Shown: positions 10,719 through 37,887 of the stretch, piece after piece
How positions within the stretch are numbered: position 1 is the first letter of the stretch
Layout: each line of letters opens with the position of its first letter
Source: Saprospiraceae bacterium
GTDB lineage: Bacteria > Bacteroidota > Bacteroidia > Chitinophagales > Saprospiraceae
DNA: 38,958 nt
Direction: 5' to 3'
Assembly: GCA_026986005.1 (NCBI GenBank)
Contig: JALSPK010000108.1
Location: forward strand, 1-38,958
Notes under the pieces: model-generated
What the model was told of the DNA's origin: nothing
Databases searched by the model: none
The model's input: only the letters and a program-made list of their open reading frames with translations
Position numbers and translations under genes: made by a program

Positions 10719-10739
10719 ATTTCTTTTGTTTTGATAATT

Positions 10740-10747
10740 CAAAAGTA
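10740..10747 (-). promoter_or_regulatory. -7 promoter element for the ABC pair
   Basis: The complement reads TACTTTTG, matching the Bacteroidota -7 consensus TAnnTTTG, 21 bp before the chosen ATPase start at 10718. No good -33 TTG is seen at the usual distance, so this rests on the -7 box and its position. Confidence 0.45.
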
Positions 10748-10870
10748 GATATTTTAATATGTTATAATAAAATAATCAGATAAAAATCTTAAAAATATAG
10801 ATAAAATAGCATTAACCGGTATTTGAAGTAATATTTTTTAATTTATTTTTAAACAATTGTAACATTGGTC

Positions 10871-10878
10871 TATCTTTG
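10871..10878 (+). promoter_or_regulatory. -7 promoter element for ubiE-porT
   Basis: TATCTTTG matches TAnnTTTG and ends 17 bp before the ubiE ATG. The nearest TTG (10857-10859) is only 11 bp away, too close for a standard -33, so the call depends on the -7 element alone. Confidence 0.5.
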
Positions 10879-10895
10879 CAGCTTAAATACAAAAG

Positions 10896-11633
10896 ATGGA
10901 AAACAAAGCAGAAAAAGTAAAACCATATGATCAAAATGCAGGTAAAAAGAGTCAGATAGAGAAGATGTTTGATAATATCTCTGGCAAATATGATTTATTG
11001 AACCACGTACTAACAATGGGGATAGACAAGGGATGGAGGAAGAATTTAATAAATATGATGGCAAAAACCAAGCCTGAAATAATTTTGGACGTAGCTACAG
11101 GAACTGGAGATTTGGCTATTCTTGCTGCTGAATCTATTGCTGATGTATATGTTAAAGGATTGGATATATCTAAAGGTATGCTGAAAGTCGGAAAGGAGAA
11201 AATCAATAAAAGGAATCTTCAAGACAGAGTAAAAATGATACATGGAGATTCTGAGAATATGCCTTTTGATGATAATTCTTTTGATGCAATCACAGTTGCT
11301 TTTGGTGTTAGAAATTTTGAAAATCTAGAAAAAGGGCTTAAAGAGATGAATAGAGTTTTGAAACCTGAAGGTAGCTTATTTATTTTGGAATTTAGCAGGC
11401 CTAAGAATGCACTTTTTCGTTATGGGTTCAATATTTATTTTAAATATGTTCTCCCTTTTATAGGGAAAGTTACTTCTAAAGACCCAAAAGCGTATAAATA
11501 TCTATTTGAATCAGTACAGGCATTTCCTGCATATGAAGATTTTTTAAATATTTTGAATAATGCCGGATTTATATCAAATAATTATAAAATACAGTCGTTA
11601 GGAATCTGTTCAATATATAGTGGAAAGAAATGA
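10896..11633 (+). CDS. ubiE: Demethylmenaquinone methyltransferase UbiE/MenG
   Basis: A 245-residue class I methyltransferase. MFDNISGKYDLLNHVLTMGID near the N-terminus and the SAM-binding LDVATGTGDLAI (64-75) are classic UbiE/MenG motifs; AFGVRNFENLEKGLKEMNRVLKPEG and LEFSRP follow. It methylates demethylmenaquinone to menaquinone with S-adenosylmethionine, the last step of menaquinone synthesis in Bacteroidota, which normally lack ubiquinone. The length is usual for the family. Its TGA overlaps the ATG of the next gene (ATGA at 11630-11633), so the two are translationally coupled. Confidence 0.95.
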   Translation: MENKAEKVKPYDQNAGKKSQIEKMFDNISGKYDLLNHVLTMGIDKGWRKNLINMMAKTKPEIILDVATGTGDLAILAAESIADVYVKGLDISKGMLKVGKEKINKRNLQDRVKMIHGDSENMPFDDNSFDAITVAFGVRNFENLEKGLKEMNRVLKPEGSLFILEFSRPKNALFRYGFNIYFKYVLPFIGKVTSKDPKAYKYLFESVQAFPAYEDFLNILNNAGFISNNYKIQSLGICSIYSGKK

Positions 11634-12343
11634 ATAAAAAATTAATTATACTATTTAGCTTATTTTTTTTGATAAATACAGGAATATTTGCACAAAGATC
11701 CGGTATGAGATCATTGATGAATTTTTCGCATCATAAGGTGAAACCATATTATTTTGGTATATCATTGGGATATAATAAATCAGATTTACTGCTTAAAAAA
11801 TCTGAATATTTTGTAAAGGAATCAAAGTATTTGATTGTTGAGCCCAGTAAAGGTGTTGGCTTTCATGTTCAGATGATTGTGAATTTGAAATTGGGGAATG
11901 ACTTTGACTTACGTGTATTGCCGGGGTTCTCTTTTGCCGATAAGAAGATAGATTATTATAATAATTTGTCGGGTGAGATTGTGAAAGACAAAAGATTTGA
12001 GGCGGTATATATAGATGTCCCTTTTTTGGTCAGATACAAGTCTCAACCATACAACGATATGAGAGCTTATGCGATAACAGGGATAAAATATACATATGAT
12101 GTAAACTCTAATTCCAAAGCGAGAAATAATCAGGATTTAATTAAAATTTCACCCCATGATTTTCAGTTTGAAATAGGTGCTGGCTTTCAATTCTTTTTCC
12201 CGTATTTTATATTTTCACCGGAACTTAAGATTTCAACGGGTATAGGTAATGTATTGCTCTACGATAATGAATTGAAGGAATCAAAGGTTTTGGAAAAAGT
12301 ATTGACAAATTTATTTTCAATTTCATTTCATTTTGAAGGGTAA
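11630..12343 (+). CDS. porT: PorT-family outer membrane protein of the type IX secretion system
   Basis: A 237-residue protein with a signal peptide (1-21, ending GIFAQ) and a predicted beta-barrel: alternating hydrophobic strands such as YYFGISLGYN, GFHVQMIVNLKLG, FDLRVLPGFSF, VYIDVPFLVRYK and FQFEIGAGFQFFF. It fits the PorT family in size, the conserved IDVPFL segment and gene context, because porT/sprT commonly follows ubiE in Bacteroidota. PorT is needed for type IX secretion, the route that exports the sorting-domain proteins in this window. The 4-bp overlap with ubiE indicates co-expression. A generic outer-membrane barrel annotation is the fallback. Confidence 0.82.
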   Translation: MNKKLIILFSLFFLINTGIFAQRSGMRSLMNFSHHKVKPYYFGISLGYNKSDLLLKKSEYFVKESKYLIVEPSKGVGFHVQMIVNLKLGNDFDLRVLPGFSFADKKIDYYNNLSGEIVKDKRFEAVYIDVPFLVRYKSQPYNDMRAYAITGIKYTYDVNSNSKARNNQDLIKISPHDFQFEIGAGFQFFFPYFIFSPELKISTGIGNVLLYDNELKESKVLEKVLTNLFSISFHFEG

Positions 12344-12353
12344 AGGCAGTTAG

Positions 12354-12968
12354 TTATATTATTAATGCGGTTTGATTTCCTATATTGAATATGCTGTCTA
12401 AAATGCTTGCATTAGGCACAAATCCGATTTTATATTCAAAAACCTGCGGATATTTTTTTATATTTGAATTTTTAATATTTTTCAGATCTTTAACAGGATT
12501 GAATTTATCTCTGCTATCATCAAAATCATTGTGGTATTCTGCAATATATTCTTTTGTGAAGTTTATGGGAGTATCTATTTCAGTGATTTTTGTAATAAAT
12601 GCTCTTAATTCATTGTTCAACTCAAATAAGCTATTGTGTTTTTTATTGAAAATATCCATTAAGTCATCAAAATAAAAGTCAAAATAAGGAGCAGAGCCAT
12701 AACATGTTTTAATAGTGTTTTTGAGATTTGGTATCCAATTTTTATCGTAAGATATTTGTACGTTAGTAAAACGGAGATTTCTGTTTTTACCTTTTTTTAA
12801 AGGTATGGATATAGTTAATGGACCATTTTGCGATAGTATTATAAATCTATTTCTGTAAGTTCTTTTATTGTAATTGTCATATCGCTCAATAAAGACTTCA
12901 GAGGCTTTGTCAATTTTGCTCCAAATATAAATTGGGGCTAAAATTTGGTTTTCTATTACTAATTTCAT
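12354..12968 (-). CDS. WbqC family protein
   Basis: A 204-residue protein with the WbqC-like pattern: LAPIYIWSKIDKASEVFIERYDNYNKRTYRNR, then ILSQNGPLTISIPL, WIPNLKNTIKTCYGSAPYFDFYFDDL and LFELNNELRAFI. WbqC-family genes often sit in O-antigen clusters but the biochemical role is not established. The start at 12968 is preferred over an upstream ATG at 12995 because a TACTTTTG promoter element lies between them and because MKLVIENQILAP is the family N-terminus. It converges on porT with only 10 bp between stop codons. Confidence 0.85.
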   Translation of the reverse strand: MKLVIENQILAPIYIWSKIDKASEVFIERYDNYNKRTYRNRFIILSQNGPLTISIPLKKGKNRNLRFTNVQISYDKNWIPNLKNTIKTCYGSAPYFDFYFDDLMDIFNKKHNSLFELNNELRAFITKITEIDTPINFTKEYIAEYHNDFDDSRDKFNPVKDLKNIKNSNIKKYPQVFEYKIGFVPNASILDSIFNIGNQTALII

Positions 12969-28917: not shown

Positions 28918-31443
28918 TTAGTATTTTATAAATGCTTTCACTATAGAATTATGCCTCGTTATTATTACCATTTTATATATGCCATTTTCTAGGTTTTTTA
29001 TATCTATTTTCGTAGTTCTATTAAATGATTTAACTCTTTTCCCATCTAATGAATAGATAATTATTGAATTGATTTTTTCAATATTAAAAGCTTCAATATT
29101 TAAAAAGTCAGATGCCGGATTAGGATAAATTATTATGGAACTTATATTGGGATTATTGTTGCTAGTCGTTTTTTCAATATCAGAGGTGTATCTTGGCAAT
29201 ATCTGGTATCCTTCGGTAAATGGCATTGTGTCATCAAATTGGTTTCCAATTCCCGTTACGTTAAACGTATAATCAGGTGCAGCAATTCTAGATAATTCTA
29301 CATCATTGTCTATTCTCATTATATATTCATTAGTGCTATTTGTAACTATAACATTGAAGCTGCTTCCATCTGCTTTCCATTCTGAAGGATTCTTGATTTT
29401 TAAGTTTTTTATTGTGATTAACTGAGATTCTGTTTCTTCTCCAAGTTTTGTTGTTTGTTTGGCTTTGAATATTTGATGACCTGAACTGATTAGAATTATT
29501 GTATCGGGTTTTATCTGGAGTAATCCCTTGTATTGATCTATTTTACCTTTAATACTAATATAATCTCCCTCATTAACTGTGTATCCAAATTTTTTGGTGA
29601 CGCTGAATACTCCTATTCCGTCATTTAATTCGTCAATCATTGTAAATTGTAATCCTGCAGGTCTGAGATTAATCCCGTACACCAAGCCTCTTAACTCACA
29701 ATTTGTACCTACAGATATTCCTTTTCCGTCATTATCAACTTGAGTTACCTCATTTATCTTTTTTATTGGATATCCTACAGCTGAATACGGGTTTATATCT
29801 GCTATATACCTAGGAAGCAATTGATATCCATCAAAAAGAGGGTGTGTTTTGTCGTATTGTCCACCAAGTCCTGTTATGTCGAATGTGCCTACAGGGTGCG
29901 CTTTGCCAAAAATATCTGTATCAGCATCTATCCTAATATTAAATGTGTCTGTTGAATTAGTTACTTTTACATTAAACCCACTTCCTGAGTTTGTCCATCT
30001 AGTATAATCAAGGAGTGTCACGTCTTTAATTTTTACTAACTCACCTTCTGTGGTCTCATCCAACTTATTTGTGATAATAGCTTGGTTTAAAATGCTATCT
30101 TTTTGTAATAAAACAACAGAATCTAATCTTACTTGAGTTAATCCTTTGTATTGATCCATTTTGCCCCAAAGGGAAACTTTATCTCCTTCATGGAGCGAGT
30201 ATCCAAAATCTTTGTCATGACTATACGTCCAGACTCCCTTGTTGGTATCATCCTTTATAACAAATTGTAAACCATTAGAGTTGAAATTAATTCCATAAAC
30301 TGTTCCCGATATGTATGGATTATAGTATTTATTTTTAATTCTGCCCATTGAATCTATTTTAGTAAGTGTATCCATGTCATAAGTGCAATAGTTCAATCCT
30401 CCAGGGTTTGCATGAATCTCATGGCCTTTGTATTTGAAACCGGCAAATACAGGGGATGCCTGCCAGTTGACACCTTCATTATTATCTGTGTTAGCATCGC
30501 AAAGAGATAAAGAGTATCCTTGTCCATCCGCTTTGTCAGGCCAGTCTCCTTTCTCATAATATTCAACTCTATCAATGATATTATTTGCTACATCAAATAG
30601 TACTATGGTATCTGCTTTGTTGTTTAGTCCTCCTATTCCCCAGCTGAATGAAGATGCATTGAAATAGGAATGTATCAAGTTAGGGTTGCTGGAAAAGACG
30701 ATTGTTTTATATGGTTGTAGTGAGTATGAAGGCAATGTAAAATTAATGGTTTTTGTTATTATTTTATAACCCTGTATATTAATGGTGTCTTTGCTATTGT
30801 TGAAAATTTCAATAAATTCTAAACTATCTTTACCTACGCCATCATTGTACATTATTTCATTTATTACTAAAGAAGTACCTGTAACTTTCTCATTACATAA
30901 AACAGAATTGGCAAAGCCCGGAGTACCAAAGGTCTCTATATCGTTAATGGTTTTATTCAAAGAGCTAACTGAGGCTTTCCAAAACTTTCCATCTGCGTTG
31001 TCTTTTGTGAAATCGCATAATTCAAGAGAAGGTCCATCTCCGTCGGGAGCACTACCCCAATCTCCTTCATCATCATAACTTACAGAATCAACTGTAACAC
31101 CAATACTGTCTACCAATATTATCGTTTCCCCTTTATTTTTTAATCCGCCTTCATCCCATACGATTGCATTTAATCCAAAATCGTTGATTAATGCACTATC
31201 TTTTGCTAATATTAAAAATGTTTGTGGTGGCATTAATTCCGAATCAAATCTATGTTTAATCCCTTTGCTGAATTCGTATCCGGTCATGTCAATCGTATCA
31301 TCAGAGGAGTTGAAAATCTCTATGTATTCATATAGATCATCTTGATCAGGAGAATTGTAGTTTATTTCTGTAATTATAATTTGTGAGTAAATATTAATAG
31401 TTATAAAAATTGTTGCGATAATACTAAAAAATAATTTTTTCAT
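28918..31443 (-). CDS. Lamin tail domain, OB-fold-like repeat, T9SS type A secreted protein
   Basis: An 841-residue protein with a signal peptide (1-20, ending NIYS). Two lamin tail domains follow: one from ITEINYNSPDQDDLYEYIEIFN (about 23-150), and one from VINEIMYNDGVGKDSLEFIEIFN (about 192-325). Two longer repeats come next, each with VYGIN, LQF, FGY, EGD, G-KxDQYKGL, a middle with FNVxVTNST, and a YQLLPRY ending (about 375-550 and 585-755); they look like OB-fold domains. The C-terminal IIIYPNPASDFLNIEAF stretch is a type A sorting domain. Bacteroidota proteins of this design are often annotated as extracellular nucleases, but I see no catalytic domain. It is flanked by MITE-like elements on both sides. 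Confidence 0.85.
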   Translation of the reverse strand: MKKLFFSIIATIFITINIYSQIIITEINYNSPDQDDLYEYIEIFNSSDDTIDMTGYEFSKGIKHRFDSELMPPQTFLILAKDSALINDFGLNAIVWDEGGLKNKGETIILVDSIGVTVDSVSYDDEGDWGSAPDGDGPSLELCDFTKDNADGKFWKASVSSLNKTINDIETFGTPGFANSVLCNEKVTGTSLVINEIMYNDGVGKDSLEFIEIFNNSKDTINIQGYKIITKTINFTLPSYSLQPYKTIVFSSNPNLIHSYFNASSFSWGIGGLNNKADTIVLFDVANNIIDRVEYYEKGDWPDKADGQGYSLSLCDANTDNNEGVNWQASPVFAGFKYKGHEIHANPGGLNYCTYDMDTLTKIDSMGRIKNKYYNPYISGTVYGINFNSNGLQFVIKDDTNKGVWTYSHDKDFGYSLHEGDKVSLWGKMDQYKGLTQVRLDSVVLLQKDSILNQAIITNKLDETTEGELVKIKDVTLLDYTRWTNSGSGFNVKVTNSTDTFNIRIDADTDIFGKAHPVGTFDITGLGGQYDKTHPLFDGYQLLPRYIADINPYSAVGYPIKKINEVTQVDNDGKGISVGTNCELRGLVYGINLRPAGLQFTMIDELNDGIGVFSVTKKFGYTVNEGDYISIKGKIDQYKGLLQIKPDTIILISSGHQIFKAKQTTKLGEETESQLITIKNLKIKNPSEWKADGSSFNVIVTNSTNEYIMRIDNDVELSRIAAPDYTFNVTGIGNQFDDTMPFTEGYQILPRYTSDIEKTTSNNNPNISSIIIYPNPASDFLNIEAFNIEKINSIIIYSLDGKRVKSFNRTTKIDIKNLENGIYKMVIITRHNSIVKAFIKY

Positions 31444-31979: not shown

Positions 31980-31987
31980 TATTTTTG
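31980..31987 (+). promoter_or_regulatory. -7 promoter element of the TonB receptor gene
   Basis: TATTTTTG matches TAnnTTTG and ends 32 bp before the ATG at 32020. No TTG is found at the proper -33 distance. Confidence 0.4.
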
Positions 31988-32019
31988 TGGCAATATTAAC
32001 CAAAACAAAATTATTACTT

Positions 32020-34749
32020 ATGAAAAAACTATTAACTCTTTTAGTTATTTTAATGATTACAGGGTTTATGTATGGACAAGGTTCCATAAATGGAAAAGTA
32101 GTCGATAATGCCGGAGATCCTCTAATTGGAGCTTCTGTATTTATTGATGGAACTACTACTGGTACAATTACTGATGTAGACGGTAGTTTCAGTATGAAAA
32201 GCAATAGCGCTATGGTGAAACTTGTTGTTTCATATATCGGCTTTGTGACAAAAAAAGTTGATGTAAATGTGAATGGGAAAACAAATGTTGGAACAATTGC
32301 GTTGGAATCAGATGCTGTAATGTTGTCTTCAATCGAAGTCGTCGCTTCGTATGCAGTAGAAAGGAAAACTCCGGTTGCTTTTGTTTCAGTTGAGAAGAAG
32401 CAGATCGAAAAAGTACTAGGTTCTAGAGATATTCCTTTGATGATGAATCTTACTCCTTCGGTTTACGCTACTGAACAAGGTGGTGGAGCAGGAGATGCTA
32501 GAATTAATGTAAGAGGATTTAATCAAAGAAATGTTGCTATTATGATTAACGGTGTTCCTGTTAATGATATGGAGAATGGATGGGTATACTGGTCAAACTG
32601 GGACGGTATTTCTGATGCGACTTCTTCAATTCAGTTGCAAAGAGGATTGAGTGCTGTTAACTTAGCTACTCCGTCAATTGGTGGAACAATGAATATAGTC
32701 ACAAGTCCAGCCGACAAAAAAATGGGAGGTGCTGCTAAACTTGAATACGGTTCAGGTAACTTCTTAAAGTCAACAATTGGACTTAATTCGGGACTAATTA
32801 ATGATAAGTTTGCGGTAAGCATGAGTTTGGTGCGTAAAGTAGGTCAAGGTATTGTTGACAAGACTTGGACAGATGCATGGGCTTATTATTTAGGAGCATC
32901 TTACAAAATTAATGCTAAACACAAATTGGAGCTTTTTGGAATGGGAGCACCTCAAAGACATGGACAAAATCTATATAAGCAAAATCTAGCAGCTTATGGA
33001 CACGATTTTGCCAAAACAATTAAGGATTATGATCAAGCTGCATTTGATGCATTTCCGGAAGCAAAGGGGATTTCAAACAATCCGTCTGAATCAAGGTATT
33101 ATAATGAAAACTGGAACAAAGTATCTCCTGATTACAAAGGACAACAAGCAGTTGGTTCTAAGAAATTTGATAGACACGATCCTAATTTTATAAATGAGAG
33201 AGAGAATTTTTACCACAAGCCTCTAGTTAATCTTAACTGGTACGCAGATTGGTCAGATAAAGTTTCACAATATACCACTGTTTATTGGTCAGGTGGAATC
33301 GGTGGAGGTTCCGGAACAATGGGTAAAATGAAATATAATTATCACGTTGGAGTAAAAAGTCCATCAAGAATTGTTGATTGGGACGCCACAATAAAACAAA
33401 ATGCTGAAAATACTGATAGTGAATCTAAAGGGATTTTGAGAAATAGTAGAAATAACCAAACAACTATTGGAGCTATTTCCAAATTTAAGATTAAATGGAA
33501 TAGTAATTTGAATTCTACTGTAGGTATCGATTGGAGAACAGCTAATATTGAACATTACAGAGAAGTTAGAGATTTACTAGGTGGAACATATTTTACTAAG
33601 ACTAGTGATGAGTTTAACCCTAATCAAAAAGTGGGATTAGGAGAAAAAGTAGCATATAACTTTACTAACAATGTTGATTGGTTAGGAGGATTTGCTCAAA
33701 CTGAATACAATCAAGGTCCATTTACAGTTTATGGTATGGCAGGATATTCCGTTATTAAATATGATTACACTAATCACTTTAAAAAAGACAGTCTTGAAAA
33801 AGAACTATATGTATCAACTGATAATATTTCAGGATTGCAGGTGAAAGGTGGTGCGAATTACAGATTGACCGAAAATTTAAATGTTTATGGTAATGTAGGG
33901 TATGTAAACAAAGTGCCTATTTTTGATGCTGTGATTAATGATAGAGACGGAGCAAAAGCTAAAGACCCCAAAAATGAGAAATTCCAAGCTTTTGAATTGG
34001 GAACTAATTACTTTACAGCTGACGGAACATTTAAAGCTAGACTTAGTGCATATTATACAAGTTGGAAAGATAGAACAAAGTCTATTGGGGTTTATGATCC
34101 TGAAACGGACGAAGATGGATTGGTATTCATTACAGGGATGAATCAATTGCATAAAGGAGTTGAATTAGATTTGCAATATTCTCCTATTAAAATGATTCAA
34201 TTGGGCCTAACGGCTTCATTGGCTGATTGGCACAATACAAATAATGTAAAAGGTGTATTTGATCCTGATTTATCGGGGCCAAAACCTGAAGAAGAACTTA
34301 ATTTTTATGTTGATGGCTTAAAGATAGGTGATGCTCCTCAAAGTCAATATGTTGGTCTAGTTAAGTTTTTCCCGATAGAAGGTTTAGATATTGCTGCTAT
34401 TTATAGTTATTATTCCAATTTTTATGCAGATTGGGATCCGTTCTCAAGAAAGGATGAAGGAGATAAATCTCAAAGTTGGAAATTGCCAAATTACTCATTG
34501 CTTGATTTTCACGTAAACTATAAACTACCTATCGAATCAAAATTAGGTGTAACAATATTTGCGCATATTTTCAATGCATTGGATAAAATATATATTAGTG
34601 ATGCAACTGATAATAGTAAATACAATGCTTATAAATTAAAAGATGATAATGGAAATAAATATATTGTAAATCCACATAAAGCTGATGCAGCAGAAGTATT
34701 CTTAGGTTCTCCAAGAAAATTCAATGTTGGACTAAAAGTTACTTTCTAA
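32020..34749 (+). CDS. TonB-dependent receptor with carboxypeptidase-regulatory-like domain
   Basis: A 909-residue outer-membrane receptor. The ATG at 32020 gives a clean signal peptide (MKKLLTLLVILMITGFMYGQ); an upstream in-frame GTG lies inside the promoter. Residues 21-100 form the CarboxypepD_reg-like domain (INGKVVDNAGDPLIGASVF, GTITDVDGSF). The plug follows, with INVRGFNQRNVAIMINGVPVNDMENGWVYWSNW and the GLSAVNLATPSIGGTMNIVTS end. A 22-strand barrel is expected from about 230 to the terminal phenylalanine. Such receptors import substrates with TonB energy. The ligand is unknown; the neighbouring cobalamin riboswitch unit is suggestive, but this gene has its own promoter and terminator. 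Confidence 0.93.
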   Translation: MKKLLTLLVILMITGFMYGQGSINGKVVDNAGDPLIGASVFIDGTTTGTITDVDGSFSMKSNSAMVKLVVSYIGFVTKKVDVNVNGKTNVGTIALESDAVMLSSIEVVASYAVERKTPVAFVSVEKKQIEKVLGSRDIPLMMNLTPSVYATEQGGGAGDARINVRGFNQRNVAIMINGVPVNDMENGWVYWSNWDGISDATSSIQLQRGLSAVNLATPSIGGTMNIVTSPADKKMGGAAKLEYGSGNFLKSTIGLNSGLINDKFAVSMSLVRKVGQGIVDKTWTDAWAYYLGASYKINAKHKLELFGMGAPQRHGQNLYKQNLAAYGHDFAKTIKDYDQAAFDAFPEAKGISNNPSESRYYNENWNKVSPDYKGQQAVGSKKFDRHDPNFINERENFYHKPLVNLNWYADWSDKVSQYTTVYWSGGIGGGSGTMGKMKYNYHVGVKSPSRIVDWDATIKQNAENTDSESKGILRNSRNNQTTIGAISKFKIKWNSNLNSTVGIDWRTANIEHYREVRDLLGGTYFTKTSDEFNPNQKVGLGEKVAYNFTNNVDWLGGFAQTEYNQGPFTVYGMAGYSVIKYDYTNHFKKDSLEKELYVSTDNISGLQVKGGANYRLTENLNVYGNVGYVNKVPIFDAVINDRDGAKAKDPKNEKFQAFELGTNYFTADGTFKARLSAYYTSWKDRTKSIGVYDPETDEDGLVFITGMNQLHKGVELDLQYSPIKMIQLGLTASLADWHNTNNVKGVFDPDLSGPKPEEELNFYVDGLKIGDAPQSQYVGLVKFFPIEGLDIAAIYSYYSNFYADWDPFSRKDEGDKSQSWKLPNYSLLDFHVNYKLPIESKLGVTIFAHIFNALDKIYISDATDNSKYNAYKLKDDNGNKYIVNPHKADAAEVFLGSPRKFNVGLKVTF

Positions 34750-34772: not shown

Positions 34773-34805
34773 AAGCCATCTCGTTTTTCGGGATGGCTTT
34801 TTTTT
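34773..34805 (+). terminator. Rho-independent terminator of the TonB receptor gene
   Basis: AAGCCATCTCG and CGGGATGGCTT form an 11-bp stem (one T-G pair) around TTTTT at 34773-34799, followed by a T-run to 34805. It separates the receptor gene from the riboswitch unit. Confidence 0.9.
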
Positions 34806-34831: not shown

Positions 34832-34861
34832 TTGATATTTAGTTTTTTTTCTTTATCTTTG
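34832..34861 (+). promoter_or_regulatory. Promoter of the cobalamin riboswitch unit
   Basis: TTG (34832-34834), a 19-bp spacer and TATCTTTG (34854-34861) match the Bacteroidota -33 / -7 consensus. Transcription would start just ahead of the aptamer's P1 stem. Confidence 0.7.
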
Positions 34862-34865
34862 TACT

Positions 34866-35026
34866 GATATTAGTTTCCGATGGGAATATAAAGGGAATCA
34901 GGTGAGAATCCTGAACTGTACCCGCAGCTGTAAAGTCTGTATTTGTCGTGATTATTTATCCACTGTTTTTTATAGTTAAATGGGAAGGAGATTGCGATAG
35001 GACAAGTCAGAAAACCTGCTAATATC
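34866..35026 (+). promoter_or_regulatory. Cobalamin (B12) riboswitch
   Basis: GATATTAG (34866-34873) and CTAATATC (35019-35026) form a perfect 8-bp P1 stem. Inside are the conserved pieces of the cobalamin aptamer in order: AGGGAATCAGGTGAGAATCC, CTGTACCCGCAGCTGTAAAG, CCACTG, TGGGAAGG, and the B12 box CAAGTCAGAAAACCTGC. Cobalamin binding is expected to lower expression of the downstream gene. The 161 bp between aptamer and ATG show no strong U-run terminator, so control at translation is possible. Confidence 0.95.
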
Positions 35027-35187
35027 TGTTGATATTTCATTTGTGCTTCGGGAAAAAAGTACTTTGGAGTGATTATATTAATATTGGTTTGTTGTGGATT
35101 TGTTTGCCTAACTGATATTGATTTTCCATTCTGAATTCTGTATGCACTTCTGTTTTATCATTGAATTTTATTATTTAATTAAAAACA

Positions 35188-36831
35188 ATGATTATGAAGT
35201 TATTTATTACAAGTTTATTAGTTTTTTTATTTACTTTTCTAGGGACTAGCCAGACGGTTTCTTCATTTGAAGATGCTGACATTCCTATTGACTCTTTTTG
35301 GAATGGTAGCGATCTAAAGGGAGTTTTCGTTGACGGAGGAAATATTTTTGTCAATAAATTTGATACTACTTATAACCTGTGGTCTGGAGGCTGGGCTATT
35401 TCCAGCATGAGAGATGATAGTACAGCTGGATATGCCAATATATATAGTGCGATTCCGGCAAAAGCATCAAGGGGAAACAATTATGCCATTGGCCAACAAA
35501 ATGCCGTTATAAATGCCGATCTTTACGATGAGGTCTTGTATCAAGGTTTGTGGATTACTAATACTACATATGCCTATTTGAGTATGAAAAACGGAGATTC
35601 ATTTGCCAAAAAGTTTGGCGGTGAGACAGGAGAGGATCCAGATTTTTTCAAATTGAGAATTTATGGCATTAAATTGGGGAAGGTTGATTCTACAAATTAT
35701 GTTGATTTTTATTTAGCTGATTTTACAGATGTAGATAGTACTCAAGATTATATTGTTGATTCGTGGGAATATGTTGATTTATCATCATTGGGCTATGTTA
35801 GTGGTTTATCTTTTGAGTTGTCATCTAGCGATGTTGGTCAATGGGGAATGAATACCCCAGCTTTTTTTGCTGCTGATAAGATAAAAATAAGTTATAAGCC
35901 GGAAGAAGAAGCTAGTGTAGCTACTTCATTTGAAAGTCATAATATGGATTTAGACTCATCTTGGTATAGTATTGAAAGAGGATATTTTACTAGTGCCCCC
36001 TATGATTTTGAAAGTAAGTATGATACTACATACAATTTTTGGTCGGGAGGATTTGCGCTTTCAACAATGCGAAACGATAGTACAGCAGGGTTTTCCAATC
36101 TTTATGGAGCGATTGCCGGAGGTGCTTATGATGGCATAACTTACGCAGTTGGTCAAAACAATGCTAAATTTTATAGCCGTATGGCTGATACTAAGCCAAT
36201 AATCGAGAGTATTAAGATTTGCAATACCACCTATGCTTACCTAAGCATGAAAAATGGGGATTCATTTGCAAAAAAGTTTGGAGGAGATACAGGCGATGAC
36301 CCTGATTTTTTCAAATTGAGAATTTATGGTATTTATTCTATTTCCGGTATTGTTGATTCATCAAAATATTTGGATTTCTATTTGGCAGATTATAGATTTG
36401 ATGATAATTCCAAAGATTACATTGTAACAGATTGGACAGAAATTGATATTGCAGAAGCTTTGGGAAAACCTACGGGATTAGCTTTTGAGTTGTCATCTAG
36501 TGATGTAGGCGGGTTTGGGATGAATACACCTGCTTTCTTTGCAATGGACAAAATTTCTTATGACCTTACTTCAGGCATTATTGATTATAACGAAGGTGTT
36601 AAGTTTGATATCTATCCTAATCCTGCGATTGATGTTGTTAATGTTAATACATCTATTGGAAATGGGAAATATGAGATTTTTAATATGTATGGTTCCTTAG
36701 TTTTGAATGGTCAATTGAGCAAAGGTGATGTGATCGATGTTAGAGGTCTTAACGCAGGCTCATATATAATTGTAGTGTCAGATGGAATAAATAGAAGTGC
36801 AAGAAAAATAGTTGTTGCGAGTAAGAAATAA
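35188..36831 (+). CDS. Tandem DUF4465 protein with T9SS type A sorting domain, riboswitch-controlled
   Basis: A 547-residue protein with a signal peptide (1-21). Two DUF4465 domains follow, about 25-236 and 245-460. Both contain WSGGxA, AYLSMKNGDSFAKKFGG, DPDFFKLRIYGI, DFYLAD, ELSSSDVG and MNTPAFFA almost unchanged. Residues 472-547 (FDIYPNPAIDVVNVN) are a sorting domain, so type IX export is expected. The gene is directly downstream of a cobalamin riboswitch, predicting expression when B12 is scarce. From memory, DUF4465 proteins occur in Bacteroides B12 uptake loci and relate to surface cobalamin-binding proteins (BtuH), which would fit a role in capturing corrinoids; I cannot verify that here. 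Confidence 0.88.
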   Translation: MIMKLFITSLLVFLFTFLGTSQTVSSFEDADIPIDSFWNGSDLKGVFVDGGNIFVNKFDTTYNLWSGGWAISSMRDDSTAGYANIYSAIPAKASRGNNYAIGQQNAVINADLYDEVLYQGLWITNTTYAYLSMKNGDSFAKKFGGETGEDPDFFKLRIYGIKLGKVDSTNYVDFYLADFTDVDSTQDYIVDSWEYVDLSSLGYVSGLSFELSSSDVGQWGMNTPAFFAADKIKISYKPEEEASVATSFESHNMDLDSSWYSIERGYFTSAPYDFESKYDTTYNFWSGGFALSTMRNDSTAGFSNLYGAIAGGAYDGITYAVGQNNAKFYSRMADTKPIIESIKICNTTYAYLSMKNGDSFAKKFGGDTGDDPDFFKLRIYGIYSISGIVDSSKYLDFYLADYRFDDNSKDYIVTDWTEIDIAEALGKPTGLAFELSSSDVGGFGMNTPAFFAMDKISYDLTSGIIDYNEGVKFDIYPNPAIDVVNVNTSIGNGKYEIFNMYGSLVLNGQLSKGDVIDVRGLNAGSYIIVVSDGINRSARKIVVASKK

Positions 36832-36859
36832 GACTTATAACGATAAGTCGGAATGGGGG

Positions 36860-36898
36860 AAGGTGGAAGTTTTTTACTTCCGCCTTCTATTTTTTTTT
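36860..36898 (+). terminator. Terminator between the DUF4465 gene and the next T9SS gene
   Basis: AAGGTGGAAGT (36860-36870) and ACTTCCGCCTT (36876-36886) pair over 11 bp (one T-G) around TTTTT, followed by a T-rich run to 36898. Only 14 bp separate it from the next ATG, so the downstream gene probably depends on read-through, since no separate promoter fits in the gap. Confidence 0.8.
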
Positions 36899-36912
36899 AA
36901 TAATTCATTATT

Positions 36913-37887
36913 ATGGAAAGGAATATTGTGTTTTTATTATTTTTATTCAAATTTTGCCTATTATCAGGACAATTTGCCCCTGTGGTTGGTGAAGAAGGCT
37001 CTACCGCAATAAGTAAGGATAGTTCCCTGATCATAAATTGGGCAAGTAAAGGAATAGTCCAAAGAGGATATGTAGATATTAGTGACAAAAGTAAAGGTAA
37101 TGTAATACAAGGTAGTATCGAAAAATCCTATGGCAAAGCAGATAATGTGACGGTAAGCCTTGGTGATAGTGGGGTAGTGGTACTTGAATTTAATCCGCCA
37201 ATTGTCAATGGTGAATCGTGGGATTTTGCTGTTTTTGAAAATTCATTCGATGATACATTCCTTGAATTAGCTACAGTAGAAGTTAGTTCAGATGGTGAGA
37301 GATTTGTGATGTTTCCTCCTGTGTCATTGACAAAATATGATACACAAGTCGGTTCGTTTGGTTTATTGGATGCTACAAAAATCCATAATCTTGCGGGGAA
37401 ATATAGAGGTGGTTATGGTACTCCTTTTGACTTGGATTCATTGCCTGAAAGTGACTTCCTTGATAAGGATAATATTGTATACGTTCGAGTGACTGATGTC
37501 GTTGGAAGCATAAATCCTTTATATTCTAGAGAGGATTCGTTTGGTCATCCCATCAACGATCCGTTTCCGACTCCATTTGAATCCGGAGGATTTGACCTTG
37601 ATGCTGTAGGCGTAATTCATGAGAAAGTACCAAATTCGAATTTGAATTTATCATTGAAAAGCATAATCGTATATCCTTCACCTGTGATGGATGTGTTAAA
37701 CATCAAAACTACTTACAATGTGAAGAGTCAACTACATATACTTGATATTAACGGACATTATATGATGTCTAGCACTATTACTAACAAGTGTTTAGTAGAT
37801 GTTTCTGATTTTCCTGACGGTATCTATTATGTGGTAATATATAACGATGACAAAGCAGCTGAGTTAGCTTCATTTATCAAAATATAG
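36913..37887 (+). CDS. T9SS type A secreted protein in the cobalamin riboswitch unit
   Basis: A 324-residue protein with a signal peptide (1-19, ending LLSGQ). The main domain (about 20-240) has VSLGDSGVVVLEFNPPI, SWDFAVFENSF, LATVEVSSDGERFVMFPP, AGKYRGGYGTPFDLDSLP and GGFDLDAVGVIHE. I know this layout from uncharacterised Bacteroidota surface proteins but cannot attach a function; the last motif resembles a sugar- or metal-binding beta sandwich edge. The C-terminal IIVYPSPVMDVLNIKT stretch is a type A sorting domain. It follows the DUF4465 gene by 81 bp across a terminator hairpin. The shared strand and small gap suggest partial co-expression under B12 control. Confidence 0.8.
   Translation: MERNIVFLLFLFKFCLLSGQFAPVVGEEGSTAISKDSSLIINWASKGIVQRGYVDISDKSKGNVIQGSIEKSYGKADNVTVSLGDSGVVVLEFNPPIVNGESWDFAVFENSFDDTFLELATVEVSSDGERFVMFPPVSLTKYDTQVGSFGLLDATKIHNLAGKYRGGYGTPFDLDSLPESDFLDKDNIVYVRVTDVVGSINPLYSREDSFGHPINDPFPTPFESGGFDLDAVGVIHEKVPNSNLNLSLKSIIVYPSPVMDVLNIKTTYNVKSQLHILDINGHYMMSSTITNKCLVDVSDFPDGIYYVVIYNDDKAAELASFIKI

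Follow-up and report, generated by a model that had tools for sequence, protein, structure and literature searches.

Among the closest described counterparts of the locus analysed here are the cobamide loci of Bacteroides thetaiotaomicron (btuB, btuG, btuH, btuJ, btuK, btuL), which share with it a riboswitch, BtuB, BtuG and accessory capture proteins. The locus is a riboswitch-headed pair of genes, encoding proteins that we call P1 and P2, at positions 34,832 to 37,887 of contig JALSPK010000108.1 (38,958 nucleotides; GCA_026986005.1) from a Saprospiraceae bacterium; this whole stretch is referred to as the window, and it constitutes the entire contig C108 of a draft genome of 3.8 Mb that is 96.9% complete. 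It differs from the B. thetaiotaomicron loci in that the system is divided between two riboswitch units and the accessory proteins have type IX secretion tails. We consider it quite likely that the P1-P2 unit is the exported, scavenging half of a B12 uptake system.

The capture-protein literature covered centres on lipoproteins of gut Bacteroides, and two families are relevant. The first is DUF4465 (PF14717, IPR027828), to which BtuJ1 and BtuJ2 belong; B12 is bound by eight of its members, at identities down to 16%, through loops that include a conserved HI loop whose Tyr is kept in 97% of homologues (PMC13398666), and C-terminal export motifs are reported for 38% of 824 family sequences (PMC12751083). 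The second is BtuH, represented by the C-terminal domain of BtuH2 and the BtuH domain of BtuG1 (BtuGH), in which Asn399 and Phe401 of BtuH2 sit at the B12 phosphate and lower ligand (PMC8941943). In Flavobacterium psychrophilum a cobalamin riboswitch precedes a TonB-dependent transporter, and the passages covered mention no exported capture protein (PMC9723704). Among the matches listed from the open-access literature, none deals with type IX-exported B12 binders or with P2, beyond the motif count of PMC12751083. Judged against those matches, the kind of system is known, and the new points are the exported doubled form of P1, the P2 family, and the tie between P2 and BtuH.

P1 has the following features:

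35188..36831, + strand: P1, an exported tandem-DUF4465 protein of 547 residues (open reading frame and Pfam), with a second ATG at 35194
35368..35883, + strand: P1 DUF4465 (BtuJ-type) domain 1, 159.1 bits, HI loop GMNTPAFF with Phe for the usual Tyr
36028..36555, + strand: P1 DUF4465 domain 2, 149.4 bits, 59% identical to domain 1 and with the same Phe
36610..36816, + strand: P1 type IX secretion C-terminal sorting domain, PF18962 42.5 bits, TIGR04183 41.7 bits

P1 matches PF14717 in two stretches with 294.9 bits (cut-off 25) and Por_Secre_tail with 42.5 bits (cut-off 27), so the description of it in the initial annotation as a tandem-DUF4465 type IX protein holds. A single-sequence search of PDB with P1 returns the DUF4465 structures 9hmu (4.9e-20), 9fct (4.3e-19) and 9i2l (2.5e-07), all of which are B12 complexes (PMC13398666, PMC12751083). 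The published DUF4465 work thus makes the likely function of P1, and the export of such proteins, known in kind, and the same annotation's statement that both functions were unassigned is outdated for P1. The P2 domain has no Pfam family. P1 resembles BtuJ in its Pfam match, its matches to B12-bound structures, its upstream riboswitch and its B12-uptake setting; it differs in being doubled, in having a type IX tail in place of a lipoprotein signal, in having Phe for the HI-loop Tyr in both copies, and in lying in a unit without a receptor gene. The word 'tandem' does not occur in PMC13398666, and two neighbouring DUF4465 matches are present in 11 of the 81 genomes with DUF4465, that of the window included. 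P1 is very probably an exported B12 capture protein.

P2 is encoded immediately downstream:

36913..37887, + strand: P2, an exported protein of 324 residues (open reading frame and Pfam)
36973..37623, + strand: P2 N-terminal domain, putative distant relative of the BtuH B12-binding domain (alignment, AlphaFold2 model and profile comparison)
37669..37854, + strand: P2 type IX secretion C-terminal sorting domain, PF18962 37.5 bits

The Por_Secre_tail match (37.5 bits) bears out the call of a second type IX protein at 36913-37887, and no further Pfam family matches P2 at E 0.01; the 76 aligned P2 sequences have scattered weak Pfam matches only. Assignment to a known NCBIfam family was rejected, as the matches are to the tail and, via the tail, to two tail-bearing enzymes far below their cut-offs, and a relationship to DUF4465, BtuG or BtuB was rejected with profile probabilities of 1.1, 0.2 and 0.2 respectively. 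In its own genome the other matches of P2 are confined to the end that bears the sorting tail (from query residue 200 onwards), and its nearest relatives among the matches listed are from Saprospiraceae metagenome-assembled genomes, at 76% and 73% identity.

An AlphaFold2 model of the P2 domain, built from the 76-sequence alignment, has a predicted local distance difference test score of 94.7 and a predicted template modelling score of 0.92. A Foldseek search against PDB chains gives only two matches with E below 0.001, both of them chains of 7biz (BtuH2 with B12). With VIA-align 2 the model aligns to 7biz residues 318-592, the C-terminal B12-binding domain, with Z 12.3 (159 residues, root-mean-square deviation 3.2), and to the BtuH domain of BtuG1 (8blw, 393-660) with Z 11.0; the next fold match is the CBM32 of AlyQ with Z 9.8, and the remainder are lower. 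Because BtuH itself modestly resembles the alginate lyase AlyQ (PMC8941943), part of the likeness between P2 and BtuH is that of a general jelly roll.

A profile comparison relates the two by sequence as well. The P2 profile matches a set of 32 BtuH rows (two of them duplicates) with probability 94.7 and E 5.7e-8 for the single comparison, over 50 confident columns; the controls gave 0.3 when reversed, at best 1.3 among 30 column shuffles and at best 1.0 among 41 neighbour families. Within the confident stretch Asn399 and Phe401 of BtuH2 align with P2-domain Asn90, which is invariant, and Phe92, which is kept in at least 90%. Equivalence of BtuH2 Q333 with Gln7 of the P2 profile is not claimed, as it appears only in a forced alignment and the structural range disagrees. 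Neither 7biz nor 8blw is found among PDB sequences by phmmer with P2 or by hmmsearch with the P2 profile, and for lack of such a single-sequence match we term P2 BtuH-like rather than BtuH. The P2 domain is also shorter (about 220 residues, as against about 270 or more), its chain has no PKD or propeller partner, and it has a type IX tail where BtuH is a lipoprotein; a lipobox-like pattern is present in the first 30 residues of none of 79 P2 proteins. A BtuH2 orthologue (L156 8918-10714; 7biz E 1.3e-206) lies in a genome that we call Bacteroides-type from its gene order, and of the 149 genomes covered from its order, 30 have BtuH domains. A 314-residue gene in the Bacteroides-type locus L155, considered as BtuH1 and sought in 149 genomes, was rejected as thioredoxin-like; in L156 the gene in the place of BtuL (10725-12911) matches the Receptor L domain with 40.9 bits.

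The upstream region contains the following elements:

34832..34861, + strand: promoter, TTGATA near -33 and TATCTTTG (TAnnTTTG) near -7, as judged from the sequence and the presumed consensus
34854..35037, + strand: complete cobalamin riboswitch aptamer, RF00174, 99.9 bits, model positions 1-189 of 189
35038..35187, + strand: leader from the aptamer to the P1 gene, with a conserved block at 35029-35067

Over the whole model the aptamer reaches 99.9 bits (E 5.3e-24), where the gathering score is 31.5, and a chance match is rejected on that score; a tRNA is the one further Rfam match in the window to pass its gathering score. The aptamer is complete, as the initial annotation had it, but its helix P1, described there as perfect, is so only for the inner nine pairs, after which come a mismatch and two further pairs, and Rfam marks a few non-standard pairs at the outer end. 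The consensus promoter proposed there is present, with TATCTTTG at 34854-34861 and TTGATA at 34832. Of 33 related riboswitches, 25 have TAnnTTTG, which we take to be the Bacteroidota -7 consensus, at -4 to +1 relative to the beginning of the aptamer (hand tally), and 29 have it anywhere between -60 and +20; among 81-base windows placed at random in the same loci, 4.6% contain one. The expected transcription start is in the first bases of helix P1. The block at 35029-35067, spanning the end of the aptamer and beyond, is identical in the window and in the related loci L013 and L014, and part of it forms a possible short hairpin, making it a candidate switching element; folding of the leader gives a z of -0.92, from which no switching element can be named.

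The gene neighbourhood of P2 was surveyed in the best 80 of 149 relatives from a scan of genome contigs. The alignment comprises 75 of these loci plus the window (L087 is partial, and the near-copies L023, L035, L048 and L070 were excluded), and neighbours were counted in 78 loci, near-duplicates included (L079 and L083 lost the P2 gene to overlap filtering), within three genes on the same strand and with clusters named from representatives. Members of a BtuB-like cluster lie near P2 in 53 loci, of a BtuG-like cluster in 50, DUF4465 genes in 28 (a lower bound, as they were sought with the domains of the window), DUF4465-P2 fusions in three and a BtuG-like exported propeller in 22; at least one such B12-type gene is present in 65 of the 78. 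Directly upstream of P2 are DUF4465 (28 loci), the propeller (21) or a receptor (8), and directly downstream BtuG (33) or a receptor (21). A frequent order is riboswitch, BtuB-like receptor, DUF4465 or exported propeller, P2, and BtuG-like DUF5074 protein; alternatively the receptor lies 3' of P2. DUF4465 and P2 share a single reading frame in L016, L027 and L038, the latter two near-identical, and frame lengths suggest a similar fusion in G166 and one of reversed order in G281. The propeller group (24 proteins) is BtuG-like with profile probability 97.7 and E 1.5e-12 over 312 columns; its type IX tail was verified in one member (L022), and it is perhaps an exported form of BtuG. It is encoded near P2 at L022 8619-9896 and in 21 other loci, and in 21 it is directly upstream, in the place taken elsewhere by DUF4465.

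Riboswitch linkage was assessed in 40 genomes with P2, corresponding to 40 of these loci. RF00174 is present somewhere in 36, and in 31 it immediately precedes the P2 operon; of these 31, 20 were recognised by a letter pattern in place and 11 were settled by the covariance model. The covariance model found a riboswitch in 14 of a further 29 loci, always on the P2 strand and upstream, several of the others being short contigs, for a total of 45 of 69 loci, near-copies included; position matches in L019 and L033 are not riboswitches in those loci and were counted as without. The remaining 11 loci (L082-L092), searched by letter pattern only, gave one match, in L088. Of 295 genomes of the class, 81 contain DUF4465 and 90 contain P2, with 70 containing both (odds ratio 62, p 2.5e-37, uncorrected for shared ancestry); P2 occurs without DUF4465 in 20 and DUF4465 without P2 in 11, and 14 genomes whose P2 matches are all weak (below 57 bits) were counted as without P2. 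DUF4465 lies within 5 kb upstream of P2 on the same strand in 47 genomes.

The genome also encodes further parts of the proposed uptake system. RF00174 occurs in it twice, and the second copy, on contig C21, precedes a BtuB-like TonB receptor and a BtuG-like DUF5074 propeller protein. The receptor's best NCBIfam match is TonB-B12, at 102.8 bits (below the cut-off of 599.7), and its longest frame enters the aptamer, so that its start is probably an inner Met (by eye); the propeller protein scores 70.1 bits (over the cut-off of 27.2) and has a lipoprotein-like start by eye. P1 and P2 both have signal peptide-like starts (by eye) and Por_Secre_tail matches over the cut-off, in a genome that encodes SprA (2023 bits), which together mark them as type IX cargo. 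Methylmalonyl-CoA mutase (1050.6 bits, over the cut-off) and a corrinoid protein are encoded, along with an IcmF-matching frame of 855.6 bits that is below the cut-off and cut by the locus end; from these B12-type enzyme genes the genome appears to use B12. CbiC was not found in the draft genome, and this one absent marker may mean that B12 cannot be made.

We therefore favour the reading of the unit as the exported part of B12 uptake and propose the following course. When B12 is scarce the riboswitch, if it acts as its family does, would permit expression. P1 and P2 would cross the inner membrane by their signal peptides; as their tails and the presence of SprA suggest, type IX secretion would then take them through the outer membrane, to stay on the cell surface or be released close by. 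P1 may bind up to two B12 molecules through its two BtuJ-type domains, by extension from the proven family, and P2, with its BtuH-like domain, would probably bind B12 or aid its handover. B12 would then pass to the BtuB-like receptor and BtuG-like lipoprotein, whose genes lie in the other riboswitch unit. The initial annotation proposed cobalamin-capture factors exported by the type IX system; this is supported strongly for P1, by the published biochemistry of its family, and a capture role is likely for P2. Its comparison to the lipoprotein capture factors of gut Bacteroides fits well, with BtuJ as the counterpart of P1 and the BtuH domain as that of P2. A role of P2 in B12 acquisition is very likely, given its operon context in relatives and the match of its model to the BtuH2 domain; context and homology also favour, with appreciably less assurance, B12 binding by P2 itself.

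Several observations weigh against this reading. Both copies in P1 read GMNTPAFF where NTP-x-Tyr (Tyr245 of BtuJ1) is expected, although a residue kept in 97% of homologues is usual rather than strictly required for DUF4465 membership; in the DUF4465 proteins adjoining P2 relatives Phe is the common residue at this site, with 23 of 33 motifs, the others having Tyr (9) or Leu (1) (hand count, window included, with the motif located in 28 of 32 proteins). For the BtuH2 contacts H476, Y510, W511 and W577, P2 offers no clear equivalent. Five weak P2 relatives (49-56 bits) match P2 with probability 99.1 and BtuH with 96.6, as against 94.7 for P2 itself; they share the Asn-x-Phe and lie outside B12 loci, the neighbours scanned for four of the five being genes for malic enzyme, lactone oxidase or a citrate transporter, and none of their five loci has a cobalamin riboswitch, compared with four of four comparison loci (three of Bacteroides type and the BtuB locus of the genome studied here). 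P2 and BtuH thus belong to a wider superfamily, and homology alone is no proof of binding by P2, for which context and homology must be taken together. No B12 gene is nearby in 13 of the 78 P2 loci, no riboswitch is upstream in 24 of the 69 (some of them short contigs), and RF00174 is not matched in four of the 40 genomes with P2. In six loci (L033, L047, L048, L056, L065 and L091) P2 lies downstream of a formiminotransferase-cyclodeaminase gene (cluster c11), and no cobalamin riboswitch was found near P2 in the five of these that were covered (L033, L047, L048, L056 and L065). A MetH activation domain was not found in the draft genome, and the terminator between P1 and P2, described below, leaves their joint expression not assured.

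An alternative is that P1 captures B12 while P2 is a non-binding structural or docking partner, serving for instance to anchor P1 or BtuB/BtuG or to bind a glycan of the surface in the manner of CBM32-like jelly rolls. The fold of P2 is also CBM32-like (Z up to 9.8), the corrin-ring contacts of BtuH2 are not recognised in it, its wider superfamily occurs in non-B12 settings, and the B. thetaiotaomicron accessory proteins BtuL and BtuK2 did not bind B12 in published work. Nonetheless, the top structural match of P2 is a B12-binding domain itself, P2 is fused to DUF4465 in three loci, and the 37 invariant columns among 76 P2 sequences suggest a ligand or metal site, so that we regard a non-binding P2 as rather unlikely.

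Two elements lie in the region between the P1 and P2 genes:

36832..36849, + strand: short hairpin 3' of the P1 stop, also in L013 and L014
36858..36888, + strand: intercistronic intrinsic terminator of 13 pairs and a T run, ending 24 bases before the P2 start, its hairpin also in L013 and L014

This strong terminator raises the alternative that the riboswitch governs P1 only and P2 is expressed otherwise and is functionally unrelated. However, only 24 bases separate it from the P2 start, a gap that would hardly fit a promoter, and of 28 relatives in which DUF4465 and P2 are neighbouring but distinct genes, 22 have the two overlapping or less than 50 bases apart; one of these relatives (L089) also has a hairpin and T run. 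Control of P1 alone thus seems improbable, and partial read-through, yielding more P1 than P2, is the simplest reading of the sequence; the terminator would then probably hold P2 below the level of P1. Still less probable is a cobamide hoarding or denial device in which released proteins lock B12 away from neighbours, for although the type IX tails indicate export and BtuH2 releases B12 very slowly (PMC10404256), the linkage to BtuB-like and BtuG-like genes in relatives is as uptake predicts, and vesicle-mediated B12 uptake in B. thetaiotaomicron needs BtuJ according to a published abstract.

With uptake as the preferred function, we suggest tentatively, as a possibility short of the probable, that P2 is the founding member of a new, as yet unnamed family of B12 binders exported by the type IX system and that, together with exported BtuJ-type proteins, these are released B12 carriers, a protein counterpart to siderophores and haemophores. 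B12 is scarce and many dependent bacteria cannot make it, and the P2 family is present in about three in ten of the sampled genomes of the class. Were the suggestion correct, environmental Bacteroidota would rely on exported carriers for what lipoproteins and vesicles do in gut Bacteroides. Should P1 and P2 prove to bind B12, non-gut Bacteroidota would have a parallel capture system based on export, and a family that lacks annotation and occurs in 90 of 295 genomes would gain a testable function. The BtuH fold, for which a 2022 description gave no known structural homologues, would then also have a distant second example in P2, and comparing the two could reveal which residues enable a jelly roll, a common fold, to bind B12.

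One further element lies upstream of the unit:

34773..34799, + strand: intrinsic terminator of the upstream TonB-receptor gene, 11-pair stem, loop of 5 and T run

A Pfam profile search places a TonB-dependent receptor gene at 31987-34749, before the riboswitch unit, and as this gene has its own terminator-like hairpin the riboswitch opens a new unit. In L013 and L014 too the P1-P2 unit lies behind its own riboswitch without a receptor, and both genomes hold a second riboswitch; in L015 and L017 a receptor, DUF4465 and P2 are behind one riboswitch. The upstream receptor of the window has a carboxypeptidase-regulatory-like domain, and the same cluster (c25) is found upstream in L013, L014 and L017; it is a possible uptake partner.

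Other type IX and P2-like proteins were also observed. At 28918-31443 the window encodes another type IX-tailed protein, with two lamin-tail stretches (Pfam). Nine genomes of family f4 (G042, G089, G126, G159, G190, G220, G248, G301 and G325) have ten P2-like matches each, which is the number scored; most of these are weak, and many recur within single frames of 500-1500 residues, pointing to an expanded family sharing the domain core. The locus L064, on a contig titled Woesearchaeota archaeon, contains a riboswitch, BtuB-like, P2 and BtuG-like set, and is probably a misbinned Bacteroidota contig.

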